Source of the DNA: Thermodesulfobium sp. 4217-1
Lineage (GTDB): Bacteria > Thermodesulfobiota > Thermodesulfobiia > Thermodesulfobiales > Thermodesulfobiaceae
DNA: 19,613 nt
Reading direction: 5' to 3'
Assembly: GCF_039822205.1 (NCBI RefSeq)
Contig: NZ_JBAGBW010000028.1
Location: 1-19,613, forward strand
The notes beneath the pieces are model-generated. The model did no database searches. It was not told where the DNA came from and was given only the letters and a program-made list of their open reading frames with translations. This document shows positions 2,401-9,927 of this stretch, piece after piece. Each line of letters starts with the position of its first letter. The first letter of the stretch is position 1. The position numbers and the translations under genes were made by a program.

Positions 2401-3195
2401 TTGGAGAACAACGAATTTAACCAGTTTTTGAAGAAGATAGAGTCTGTGGAAAAGTTAAACAAGAAGATAGCTTCAAGCCTTGCTGGTCTAAAAAACTCAT
2501 TTAAAAATATGAATATTAAGGACCACAAAAAATATTTAGATAATTTATCAAAAGAGACTAAGACAATTGGTGAGGAATTTTCTTTGATAGAAGAAGACCT
2601 GAGAAGTTATGCTTCTGATGTTGAGGGCTATATTAAGAGCGAACAATATCCACTGGACTTAGATTCAAAGCTTAAGGATGAACCAGGAATAAAGCTTTCA
2701 TATCCAACTTATGAGCTTGGGCCTATAAGGCTAAAGATTGATCTTAATCAGGGAAACAACATAATATTTGGCAGGAAAGCAAATAAAATATTTGACTATA
2801 AGCCAGATAAATTATTAGACCTTTTAAAGAAAAAATATTCAACAATTACTAAAAGACCTTTTAACAGGGATAAATTTTGCAAGGATCTTCTGGAGGCATA
2901 TAAGATTCTTAATAAACTAACATATCAAAACAGCGATGTGAAATGGGGGAATGCAGTATCACTTTCAAAGATCTACGAACTTATTACAATTAGCTCTGCA
3001 TATAGACAAGAATATTCAAAAGCTAATTTTATATTTGATATCTCAAGGCTAAAAGACCAGTTCGAAATTAAATTTGATAAATTTCAATTTAATTTTGGGA
3101 CGTCAAGGGATGTTGCAAACACACTTCTTGTGGTAGATTCTAATGGTAACGAGAGTAGGCTGAGCACTCTAATAGTTCACAAGTTGGAGGATTAA
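2401..3195 (+). CDS. Coiled-coil protein of unknown family, first gene of the two-ATPase cassette
   Basis: The product is 264 residues, starting at TTG with an AAGGGGG ribosome binding site 7 bases upstream. I do not recognise the family. Residues 1-75 are charged and helical with heptad-like spacing, suggesting a coiled coil. Residues 90-264 look like a mixed alpha/beta domain: SYPTYELGPIRLKIDL, a helix-rich middle, then beta-like FDKFQFNFGTSRDV and a C-terminal LSTLIVHKLED. It has no signal peptide, membrane segment or nuclease/helicase motif that I can see. The next gene begins after a 3-base gap, so it is almost certainly translated with the two ATPases and may be their partner or substrate adaptor. 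Confidence 0.8.
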   Translation: MENNEFNQFLKKIESVEKLNKKIASSLAGLKNSFKNMNIKDHKKYLDNLSKETKTIGEEFSLIEEDLRSYASDVEGYIKSEQYPLDLDSKLKDEPGIKLSYPTYELGPIRLKIDLNQGNNIIFGRKANKIFDYKPDKLLDLLKKKYSTITKRPFNRDKFCKDLLEAYKILNKLTYQNSDVKWGNAVSLSKIYELITISSAYRQEYSKANFIFDISRLKDQFEIKFDKFQFNFGTSRDVANTLLVVDSNGNESRLSTLIVHKLED

Positions 3196-3198
3196 GCA

Positions 3199-4404
3199 AT
3201 GCATATTTCTGGGGAGGATTTTAGATTATTAAAGAGTGGGCAGGTTCCTTCAGACGATGAGCTTATGTGTAGGATGTTTATTGGCCAAAGAGATTGGATA
3301 GATGAGTTTAAGGATTATTATCTTTATAACTTTGTGGGGAAGGGGTATGGCAGCAAAGTAAAGTTTCTAATTGGTTCTGAAGGCTGTGGTAAGACACACG
3401 CTCTTCGATTGCTTGGGAAATATGCGAAAGATATGGGATATGAAGTATGTCATCTATCAATTAAAGATTTAGATATAAAAATAAGCGATATGGCTTCGTT
3501 ATATAAAGAAATTTGTAATCAAGTTAACAAAGAAAGAATTGTTGCTGGACTTTGCAAGAGAGTCGCTTCTGACATTGGCTATAACGATTATGATGGCGAT
3601 GTTCTATTTCTGCCAATAATGCTTGAATACGAAAAAGGCATTCCTGCTAGCGATGCAAAAAAAGAGATTAGAAGATCTCTGGGATCTATTATAAAGAAAT
3701 TAGATGTTTTGCCCAGCTTTGTTACTTTTTGTTTTCAAGCTTGTCACGCAAGGATGGTAGATGATAACAATGAAGTTATCGACATTCTTTTGAAATGGTT
3801 AAGCGGGATTTCTCTCACCAGGCAGGAGAAGAATCAGGTTGGCATTTTTGATAAACTACAAAGGCATAATGCAAGGTTGTGGCTTAACTGCCTTATAAAA
3901 CTTTTGGATTTCGTAGGCATAAAGGGCCTTTTTGTCGCAATTGACGATCTTGAATCTGTACTATATAAAAATGATGCATCCAAAACATTAAATTATACGA
4001 GAGGCAATTTAAACGATTTGTTTGAAATGATAAGACAATTTATAGACGAAACTGAGCATATATCTAATTTTATAATATTTTTTGCTGGGAGAAATGAGCT
4101 ATTAGATGATGAAAAAAGGGGTTTTAAAAGCTATGAAGCCCTTCAAATGAGAATTCAAACAGGAATAATTCAAAAAGAACTCTTTAACCCTTATGCAGAT
4201 ATTATAGATTTTGATCAGTGGTTGTGCAATAAAGACGAATCTTTTTTTAAAGAAATAAATTATAATTTGAGAAGCATTTTTGAAGAAAGTGGCTACAGGT
4301 TTGACTTTAAAATGTCTAATTTTTTTGAATCCGAGAGTAAAAATATAAGATCTGCAATTATTGAGACCTCAAACTTTATGGAAGGGGGTGAGGATGATGA
4401 TTAA
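3199..4404 (+). CDS. P-loop ATPase, BrxC/BrxD-like (DUF2791 type), first of two
   Basis: The product is 401 residues. Walker A is GSEGCGKT (59-66) and Walker B is FVAIDDLE (245-252). After Walker B comes a helix starting TRGNLNDLFEMI, then FIIFFAGRNELLDD (291-304) and YEALQMRI (312-319). That order resembles the tail of the DUF2791 (BREX ATP-binding) family, where an R-L pattern, a strand ending in a T/R-P/N sensor and a Y-AL-R motif follow Walker B. It is a soluble AAA+-like ATPase with no evident fused nuclease or helicase. It follows the coiled-coil gene by 3 bases and overlaps the next ATPase start at ATGATGATTAA. Family placement is by pattern reading. The role is unknown; anti-phage defence or DNA transactions are possible. 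Confidence 0.8.
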   Translation: MHISGEDFRLLKSGQVPSDDELMCRMFIGQRDWIDEFKDYYLYNFVGKGYGSKVKFLIGSEGCGKTHALRLLGKYAKDMGYEVCHLSIKDLDIKISDMASLYKEICNQVNKERIVAGLCKRVASDIGYNDYDGDVLFLPIMLEYEKGIPASDAKKEIRRSLGSIIKKLDVLPSFVTFCFQACHARMVDDNNEVIDILLKWLSGISLTRQEKNQVGIFDKLQRHNARLWLNCLIKLLDFVGIKGLFVAIDDLESVLYKNDASKTLNYTRGNLNDLFEMIRQFIDETEHISNFIIFFAGRNELLDDEKRGFKSYEALQMRIQTGIIQKELFNPYADIIDFDQWLCNKDESFFKEINYNLRSIFEESGYRFDFKMSNFFESESKNIRSAIIETSNFMEGGEDDD

Positions 4405-5647
4405 CTATACAGAAAATCAGCTTGAGGCCATTGCAATTATAGAATCTTTAAGATCCGGTATCCCCACAATGCGTTCAACAAGAAATCTGCCCGATTTAAG
4501 ACCTGAATTGATGAAATTAGTTGAAAAAGATCTAAACTCTTTAAAAAATAAGTCAATTGTCAAAGGAAGGATAATATGGGGACCATATGGAGATGGCAAG
4601 TCTCATCTGTTAACATCAATAGAACATAAGGCTCTAAGTTTAAATATGGCAGTTAGCAAGATATCTTTGAGTAGAAACGTTACTTGTAACAATTTTTCAA
4701 AGCTATATTATTATCTTGCTTCTCGTGTTAGAACTCCAGATTCTGTTATTATGGGTATTCAGAGATATCTAAACCAAAAGAAAAGGGAAGAATTTTCAGA
4801 TAGCCAGATTGCTAAACCTAATAGGTATAGTCATCCATTCTTCTCATATATCTTTGAAGACTACTTGGCAGCAAGCGGTGAAGAGCAAGAAATTATTTAC
4901 AACTTTTTAGTTGGAGGAAGGCCTTTTTTAAATGAGTTAAAAAAAATTCACAAATCAATCCACAAAGTGCCAATGGAAAAGTTTGAGAGGAATTTTAGTT
5001 TCAAGGAAGATTCGAATAGTTTTTTTGATTATTTCTCTGATATATTAACCTTTTTGGGTTTTGACGGCTGGATTATTTTGATTGATGAATTGGAACTTGT
5101 ATCCAGACTTTCAAAAAACGCAAGATTGGACACATATTTAAATCTTAATAAACTGCTAAACTGGTCTGATGATCTAAATTGTCCAATATATGTAATATGC
5201 GCTGCTGCCCAGAGCTTGCAAAGTGATTTGTGGTTTTCTTCACATCTGAAGAGAAATGATAAAGACTTAATGCCTGACCTTGCAAAAGAGAAATATAAAA
5301 AAGAAGCTGTAAATATAATTAATAATTTTTTTAATTTTGCAATTGATAAAGAAATTTGTCCTATTATTAAGCCTGTGGAATTAAATGTTTTATTGGAGCT
5401 TTTGCTAAAGATAAAGGACATTTATGAAAGAGCTTTTAATAAGAGTTTTTATTTTGATATGAAAGAATTTATAGGCAATTTTCCCTCTGATACCACAATC
5501 AGAACTTATATTAGAGCGCTTATTGAGAAGTTAGATATATTAAGAGTACATGATACCGATGTTGAGGTCAGAGCTGGGAGTATTTCTGGCTACTCTATTA
5601 ATGAGGATGCAGAATATTTTTCTGAAGAGGATTTAAATGATATTTAG
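4397..5647 (+). CDS. P-loop ATPase, BrxC/BrxD-like (DUF2791 type), second of two
   Basis: The product is 416 residues. The N-terminal region is close to the DUF2791 pattern: AIAIIESLRSGIPTMR, then Walker A GPYGDGKSHLL (62-72), then MAVSKISLS and the LYYYLASRVRTP helix. Walker B is WIILIDELE (225-233), followed by a sensor-like PIYVICAAAQS (263-273). The frame is open from 4361. The ribosome binding site GGGGGTGA at 4384-4391 favours ATG 4397 (5-base spacing), though ATG 4394 is possible. The start overlaps the stop of the preceding ATPase by 8 bases, implying translational coupling and perhaps a fixed ratio or hetero-oligomer. No pglX, pglZ, brxL, helicase or TerB-like gene lies within the window. 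Confidence 0.8.
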   Translation: MINYTENQLEAIAIIESLRSGIPTMRSTRNLPDLRPELMKLVEKDLNSLKNKSIVKGRIIWGPYGDGKSHLLTSIEHKALSLNMAVSKISLSRNVTCNNFSKLYYYLASRVRTPDSVIMGIQRYLNQKKREEFSDSQIAKPNRYSHPFFSYIFEDYLAASGEEQEIIYNFLVGGRPFLNELKKIHKSIHKVPMEKFERNFSFKEDSNSFFDYFSDILTFLGFDGWIILIDELELVSRLSKNARLDTYLNLNKLLNWSDDLNCPIYVICAAAQSLQSDLWFSSHLKRNDKDLMPDLAKEKYKKEAVNIINNFFNFAIDKEICPIIKPVELNVLLELLLKIKDIYERAFNKSFYFDMKEFIGNFPSDTTIRTYIRALIEKLDILRVHDTDVEVRAGSISGYSINEDAEYFSEEDLNDI

Positions 5648-8310: not shown

Positions 8311-8970
8311 TTGGAAAGACACTTTGATATAGAGATCAGGGAATTAACGAAAAAATTATTTGAGATGACTACTCTTGTAGAGAGGTCTATTGACTTGGTT
8401 ATTCTCTCTATCTTGGAAAGAGATTCCAGAATTGCCCAAGAGGTCATTGAAAGTGAAAAAATGACAGATGAGCTTGAGATCGATATAGAAGAGCAGTGTA
8501 TGACCATGTTAGCGCTCTATCAGCCAGTAGCAAAGGATCTTAGATATATAGTTATGATTATGAGGATAATAGTAGATCTCGAAAGAATGTCTGATGAGAC
8601 AAAGAGCATCGCAGTTTCAACCATGAATCTTTTGAAGGATCCACCAATTGAGATCTTTATGCAAAAGATTCCTGATATGGCGAAGAAAGTAAAGGTTATG
8701 GTTAGGAACGCCATTACTTCATTGGTGGAAAGAAGCGAGGATATAGCTCTTAGCGTGATAGAAGATGACGATGCGGTAGATGAGGACTATCACAATATTC
8801 TTAAATATTTGAACAAAGAGATTTCTGAAAGAAGGTTCAATTGCGAAAGAATTATCGATTGGTTATTTATTACCAGGCATTTTGAGAGATTGGGGGACCA
8901 CGCCACGAACATTGCCGAAGACGTTCTATATATCGTAAGAGGCAAGAACGTTAAACACATGAAACCTTAA
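8311..8970 (+). CDS. phoU: Phosphate transport system regulator PhoU
   Basis: The 219-residue helical protein has the two three-helix-bundle repeats of PhoU. Metal-cluster type E-x3-D motifs appear in each half: ERMSD (91-95) and FERLGDHA (about 191-198). The LYQPVAKDLR segment is characteristic. PhoU links Pst transport to the phosphate-sensing kinase and restrains the Pho response when phosphate is plentiful. Start is TTG, with GAGGTG about 7 bases upstream. It is the last gene of the Pho-box operon. The kinase and regulator are not in the window. Confidence 0.95.
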   Translation: MERHFDIEIRELTKKLFEMTTLVERSIDLVILSILERDSRIAQEVIESEKMTDELEIDIEEQCMTMLALYQPVAKDLRYIVMIMRIIVDLERMSDETKSIAVSTMNLLKDPPIEIFMQKIPDMAKKVKVMVRNAITSLVERSEDIALSVIEDDDAVDEDYHNILKYLNKEISERRFNCERIIDWLFITRHFERLGDHATNIAEDVLYIVRGKNVKHMKP

Positions 8971-9050
8971 TCTTAATCGCATTAGCTGTGAGGGGAAAGT
9001 TGATTGCTAAAGTTAAATTATTTTAGTTTTGAATATGGGGAGATGCAGCT

Positions 9051-9395
9051 ATGAAAATAAGAGTTACAAATGAAGCAAGAAAATTTATTCAGAGCAGAAC
9101 CAAAGGGACTGCGTATGTTATCATAAGCGCGCCAATAAAATATTGCGGTTCCTGAACTGATCCAGAGCCTAGCAGTTTGCAGGCAAGAATCGTAACACCC
9201 GATCAGATAAATAAGTTTACTCATGATATGATTTTGTGGGACGAAGATTTAAGAGTATACGTAGAGTTTCTTACTGACAAATATTTTGGTCAAATTGATC
9301 ACGTGTTAGATCTTTGTTATGATGATGTTACTGAGGCTCCATATCTGTGCGTTAACCCTGATCCAAGACTTCTCATGGACCTGGCTCGAATTTAA
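9051..9395 (+). CDS. Probable selenoprotein with CGSU redox motif (HesB/IscA-like, tentative)
   Basis: Read through an in-frame TGA at 9153-9155 (codon 35), the frame runs 114 residues from ATG 9051 to TAA 9395. GGGGAGA at 9037-9043 is a good ribosome binding site. The TGA follows Cys-Gly-Ser, giving C32-G-S-U35, a CxxU arrangement common in redox selenoproteins. A SECIS-like hairpin begins 12 bases after the TGA. The sequence stays protein-like on both sides, with TDPEP immediately after the TGA. The opening MKIRVTNEARKFI and the CG-containing turn recall small HesB/IscA-like proteins; further cysteines are Cys89 and Cys100. A conventional gene caller would report only the part after the TGA, from TTG 9177. 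The alternative is a pseudogene with one nonsense mutation. The gene stands between phoU and a UspA gene. Confidence 0.75.
9156..9184 (+). promoter_or_regulatory. Candidate bacterial SECIS element
   Basis: Just downstream of the TGA, GCCT (9167-9170) pairs with AGGC (9181-9184), and GC (9172-9173) with GC (9179-9180). One A (9171) is bulged and the apical loop is AGTTT. The loop G at 9175 is 20 bases after the TGA, within the range seen for bacterial SECIS elements, whose SelB-binding loops carry a G-U and a nearby bulged base. Confidence 0.6.
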
Positions 9396-9413: not shown

Positions 9414-9842
9414 ATGAAAATCTTAGTTGCTGTGGATGGATCCAAGCCTTCTATAAAGGCTGTAGAATTTGCTTTAAATATGGCAAAAGAGCACCACGCA
9501 ATAGAAGTTGTATTGATAACAGTGTCTTGTGGGTACGACTGGACTTTTGTGAGCGATGATGTTTTCGTAGATCCTGAGAAGATCAATGAAGCCTGTGACA
9601 TAGCTTTTTCTAAAAAATTGGATGAAGCTAAAAAAGTTTTTGATGATGCAGGAGTTAAGGTAAAGGCTATAATGATCTCGGGAGGCGATCCTGCAAAGGA
9701 GATCTTGAAATATGTAGAAGAAAATGATATCGAAAGAATCATAGTTGGAAACAAGGGTCTAAATCCTTTGTCAGGTTTGATTGGAAGTGTAGCTTACTCT
9801 ATTTTAAAAAATGCTACTGTTCCTGTTACATTGGTAAAGTAG
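9414..9842 (+). CDS. Universal stress protein UspA family
   Basis: The 142-residue single-domain Usp has the usual length. It begins MKILVAVDGSKPS, with the conserved Asp of the ATP-binding type. The ATP-phosphate motif G-x2-G-x9-G-S is seen in GNKGLNPLSGLIGSVA near residues 118-133. The protein ends in the expected TVPVTLVK strand. AAGGAGGT provides a strong ribosome binding site. It lies 18 bases after the selenoprotein, so the two may be co-transcribed; that would suggest a stress or redox link, but this is inference. Confidence 0.92.
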   Translation: MKILVAVDGSKPSIKAVEFALNMAKEHHAIEVVLITVSCGYDWTFVSDDVFVDPEKINEACDIAFSKKLDEAKKVFDDAGVKVKAIMISGGDPAKEILKYVEENDIERIIVGNKGLNPLSGLIGSVAYSILKNATVPVTLVK

Positions 9843-9880: not shown

Positions 9881-9927
9881 AATATTGGCAGCAAGAATTT
9901 TGCTGCAATATTGTTAGATATTTTTTT
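9881..9927 (+). terminator. Long hairpin and T tract between usp and ubiD
   Basis: AATATTG(9881-9887)-CAGCAA(9889-9894) pairs with TTGCTG-CAATATT (9900-9912). This gives 13 base pairs with one bulged G and a 5-base loop. A TATTTTTTT tract begins a few bases later, at 9919. It fits a terminator for the usp unit, although the T tract is 6 bases from the stem. It ends immediately before the ubiD ribosome binding site, so a leader-attenuator role is also possible. Confidence 0.6.

Follow-up and report, generated by a model that had tools for sequence, protein, structure and literature searches.

A probable selenoprotein with a CxxU motif in Thermodesulfobium, distantly related to the CC/Se motif family

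The CC/Se motif family comprises predicted selenoproteins with a CxxU motif, first predicted in Moorella thermoacetica (2026 review, Table 1, PMC13188914). It is catalogued in NCBIfam as NF041239, 'CC/Se motif family (seleno)protein' (Moor_selen_rel), and listed in reviews, without a known function. Three other described systems come close in one respect or another: TIGR01911, a group of small HesB-like selenoproteins with the motif UxGP; the A-type Fe-S carriers IscA/SufA/HesB (PF01521), with a Cys or Sec in the loop that follows the second strand and a C-terminal CxC; and the selenocysteine insertion (SECIS) element of Escherichia coli fdhF. The locus described here shares some features with each of them. 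Judged from its sequence, it very probably encodes a 114-residue selenoprotein made by Sec insertion, with a link in the general direction of the CC/Se family; this confidence applies to the product and to the direction of the link, and not to the biochemical role.

The window, i.e. the whole stretch of DNA analysed, comprises 19,613 nucleotides of Thermodesulfobium sp. 4217-1, whose genus belongs to an isolated phylum. Its features of interest are collected in Table 1. The gene is a single open frame that runs from an ATG to a TAA ending at 9395, with an in-frame TGA as codon 35 (9153-9155; context KYCGS-U-TDP). With TGA read as Sec, the translation is MKIRVTNEARKFIQSRTKGTAYVIISAPIKYCGSUTDPEPSSLQARIVTPDQINKFTHDMILWDEDLRVYVEFLTDKYFGQIDHVLDLCYDDVTEAPYLCVNPDPRLLMDLARI. 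The initial annotation, which had described one frame from a well-placed ATG with a TGA directly after Cys-Gly-Ser and extra cysteines at 89 and 100, was right in coordinates, motif and cysteines. It had also expected standard gene callers to drop the gene or to truncate it to the part after TTG 9177, and an ORF of 72 residues starting there (9177-9395) is indeed what such a caller could report. With it, the selenoproteome of a deep-branching genus gains a gene that has probably been overlooked. Four known selenoprotein genes have been reported from a Thermodesulfobium genome in the deep-Sep paper (PMC12013277). An Rfam scan of the window gave zero matches.

Table 1. Features of the selenoprotein locus and its neighbours (window coordinates).
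Feature	Position	Strand	Remarks
phoU	8311..8970	+	Context; 5' neighbour in all four species
Shine-Dalgarno-like GGGGAG	9037..9042	+	Read directly; 8 nt spacing to ATG 9051
Selenoprotein gene (probable)	9051..9395	+	Frame and single TGA kept in four species; low dN/dS on either side
CxxU motif C32-G33-S34-U35	9144..9155	+	Sec column aligned with invariant Cys/Sec of CC/Se relatives
SECIS-type hairpin GCCU-A-GCA-GUU-UGC-AGGC	9167..9184	+	Identical in four species
Cys89 codon	9315..9317	+	Invariant in four species
Cys100 codon	9348..9350	+	Invariant in four species
Universal stress protein gene (uspA)	9414..9842	+	Context; 3' neighbour in all four species
Terminator-like hairpin after uspA	9888..9906	+	Possible transcript end; pattern match only

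The window's genome (2.0 Mb) was compared with those of three species of the same genus, two of which are single contigs of 1,898,865 and 1,774,794 bases. Orthologues with the same single TGA occur in all four species, with 82-96% identity to the window's gene; in two of the four, the motif is CGAU instead of CGSU. Across the four species, dN is 0.04-0.11 against a dS of 0.28-1.7 for codons 1-34, and 0.005-0.096 against 0.21-1.25 for codons 36-114. Since dN is well below dS both before and after the TGA, both sides are under selection as protein. This agrees with the protein-like character that had been noticed on both sides, and decay of the frame in related strains, named at the outset as an observation that would speak against the proposal, is not seen in the four species; the frame is under purifying selection. 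The gene order phoU - selenoprotein gene - uspA - ubiD is common to all four species. The start of uspA lies 18 bp past the stop of the selenoprotein gene, preceded by AAGGAGG. Neighbours that encode a phosphate uptake regulator (PhoU) and a universal stress protein are compatible with a stress-related role, without proving one.

A stem-loop with a G-U apical loop had been reported some 20 bases after the TGA. The hairpin is present; it begins 11 nt past the TGA, and its loop G (9175) and U (9176) follow, the G being 19 nt past the TGA. Energy rules for SECIS elements ask for a G at the first or second loop position, located 16-37 nt after the UGA, and for an MFE of at most -7.5 kcal/mol; in short fragments, the target hairpin shows all of these properties, with a GUU loop and an MFE of -8.2 to -8.4 kcal/mol. 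A stricter scan (closed ends, -7.5 kcal/mol) retains the target in only one of the four species, and the same scan misses selD in three of the four. Such rules were rejected as stand-alone evidence, because 6-7% of TGAs picked arbitrarily in the window (20/300 and 45/721) are also followed by a SECIS-like hairpin. For this reason, the argument rests on conservation of the hairpin and not on its fold alone. Despite heavy synonymous change elsewhere, the hairpin is unchanged in the four species: codons 39-46 (9165-9188), eight degenerate codons in a row that cover it, show no change in any of the four genomes. Only one of 3,211 eight-codon windows in 12 neighbouring genes is equally conserved, and shuffling within the gene gives p = 0.03 for the unchanged run. 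Where energy rules give no clear answer, codon conservation among related species can thus back a SECIS element.

For comparison with E. coli fdhF, a sequence of its UGA region was used that matches fdhF in 5,368 E. coli genomes. Both elements have a bulged stem, and in both the loop G and U occupy positions 23 and 24, with the U of UGA as position 1; the target differs in its three-base loop, GUU, and in the bulged base, which is A in place of U. At the predicted apex, the genus's two CC/Se selenoprotein genes have CAGUU, and its selD has AGGU.

The machinery for Sec insertion, which the initial annotation had proposed to look for as selA, selB, selC and selD, is complete in the window's genome. 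Its tRNA-Sec scores 76 bits, has the anticodon TCA and ends 37 nt ahead of the selB match. Matches to selA, selB and selD are above cut-off in all four species, and selD itself contains an in-frame TGA (CAGUAA). TGA also serves as an ordinary stop in this genome; a genome-wide use of TGA as a sense codon was rejected, since pstC terminates with it.

The initial annotation had recognised no described family with exactly this layout, which holds only in part. Among NCBIfam models there is one match, NF041239 (E=1e-5), which covers target residues 1-71 and model positions 1-63 of 91, and thus not the full model. At 25.5 bits against a curated cut-off of 40, the match is below threshold, so the target is not a formal member of the family. 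A profile-profile comparison of the target with the CC/Se family over residues 1-71 gives a probability of 93.5 and E=2e-7, with the CxxU motifs aligned. The target shares with NF041239 the N-terminal strand-helix-strand, the CxxU/C motif at the family's conserved column and the small size; it differs in a C-terminal half that is longer and unlike that of the family, carries Cys89 and Cys100, and shows no detectable homology. When the two sides of the TGA were scored apart, residues 1-34 alone beat all 1,000 shuffles, residues 36-75 scored above 963 of 1,000, and residues 36-114 above only 824 of 1,000. Homology is therefore carried mainly by the part before the TGA, and the target is called a divergent relative rather than a member. 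This family link makes the gene less exotic than first thought.

Three clearer NF041239 members occur in the window's genome, namely one Cys form and two forms with a TGA. The Cys form (L017, C14:47329-47604) is about 7 kb from selA (C14:54883), and the other two are a tandem pair (L022, about C1:124,097-124,664) with the motifs CSTU and then CFSU; the three related species have this pair as well. The catalogued family has thus diversified into several paralogues in this genus. In a joint alignment that includes the Cys paralogues, all 17 sequences have Cys or TGA in the column of the target's Sec. A search for homologues with Cys in place of Sec, as had been suggested, was successful in part: distant relatives (L014-L017 and L018) carry Cys in this column, and the searches made yielded no close orthologue of equal length with Cys. 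A CC/Se relative in another phylum (G171, L020:1501-1776) has a TGA and the motif QCTU.

The target type itself appears narrowly distributed. It was not found outside the genus in a profile search of 386 genomes, in three further phyla with CC/Se relatives, or in viral contigs; a pattern search of contigs from about 85,000 species returned only one further locus, on a MAG contig whose length equals that of the contig of genome G002. In all searches made, the C-terminal part with Cys89 and Cys100 was seen only in this genus. A Pfam scan of the target gave only a chance match, and a PDB sequence search with the family profile gave no matches.

The resemblance to HesB/IscA proteins that had been suggested gains support from the predicted fold and not from sequence. 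No PF01521 match was obtained for the target, no TIGR01911 match at E <= 0.001 in the four genomes, and the IscA sequence is not significant against the family profile. The likeness to IscA is therefore structural and predicted, linked by fold only. The target model has a pLDDT of 74, with confidence lowest at the CxxU loop, and its best match among IscA/SufA/HesB-type structures has Z 5.7 (89 residues, 3.3 A; VIA-align). For the model of a CC/Se paralogue, predicted without the target, pLDDT is 81 and the best Z is 9.1 (89 residues, 3.2 A; VIA-align). For both models, the VIA-align matches listed are nearly all IscA/SufA/HesB-type structures, the remainder being a model of the related YneR; with Foldseek, neither model gave an E-value under 0.001. 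As paralogues are present in the alignment behind the target model, its fold is not fully independent evidence, and for the target itself the IscA/SufA likeness is only moderate. In the target model the Cys/Sec is located in the loop that follows the second strand, as in PF01521 proteins; the target lacks the C-terminal CxC of the latter. Like TIGR01911 proteins, it would be a small Sec protein that is HesB/IscA-like, in its case by predicted fold, and it differs from them in having CxxU and not UxGP. Taken together, sequence and model suggest that the target is a diverged relative (paralogue) of NF041239 with an IscA/SufA-like β fold.

Other readings of the locus account for the observations less well. 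If the TGA were a true stop, a 34-residue peptide and a separate 72-residue protein from TTG 9177 would be made. The latter ORF exists, and separate scoring of the two halves gives significant CC/Se homology only upstream of the TGA; yet the TTG sits inside the hairpin without a clear ribosome-binding site, codon changes are suppressed over this same hairpin, the identical TGA is kept in four species, both halves are used in the modelled fold, and Cys-bearing CC/Se relatives read through this position. Termination at codon 35 is accordingly considered very improbable. The chance of a decaying pseudogene or of a one-base sequencing error is close to negligible: either would typically show up as a single in-frame stop, and nothing more specific speaks for them, whereas the TGA is common to the assemblies of four different species (two of these assemblies are single contigs), synteny is kept, and dN/dS is low before as well as after the codon.

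A real selenoprotein might also be unrelated to the CC/Se family, its N-terminal likeness being convergent or a short shared motif. The score below cut-off and the scant detectable homology past residue 71 would fit this idea; it is nevertheless thought improbable, given the profile-profile E-value with aligned CxxU motifs, a similar order of strands, and structural neighbours that are the same as those of the CC/Se paralogue modelled without the target.

For a selenoprotein related to the CC/Se family, a possible mode of action can be outlined. At the hairpin, SelB with Sec-tRNA(Sec) would decode the UGA as selenocysteine, which would create the C32-G-S/A-U35 pair. In the predicted model, CxxU falls in the low-confidence loop that follows the second strand, and Cys89 and Cys100 lie in late strands. 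C32 and U35 may form a selenenylsulfide, possibly resolved by Cys89 or Cys100. The likeliest role, put forward tentatively and at somewhat less than even chances, would be thiol/selenol redox chemistry, or metal or sulfur handling, via this selenenylsulfide. A bolder and rather unlikely proposal is that the CC/Se selenoproteins, the target included, are Sec-bearing IscA-type carriers that hold an Fe-S cluster or another metal via the selenolate; the four genomes of the genus yielded no PF01521 protein, whereas 9 of 14 control genomes have one. The CC/Se group accounts for the only IscA-like predicted folds seen in this analysis. The most useful new idea to emerge is that an IscA-like fold is predicted for the whole CC/Se family, and this shared predicted fold provides a first testable functional hypothesis for it.

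Elsewhere in the window, a three-gene cassette (2401-5647) lies between dapB and pstC. Its absence from this site in the three related genomes points to a probable insertion. The cassette encodes a 264-residue protein without a family and two BrxC/BrxD-like ATPases (PF10923; PADLOC BrxD, SngB), and is possibly a partial or undescribed defence system.
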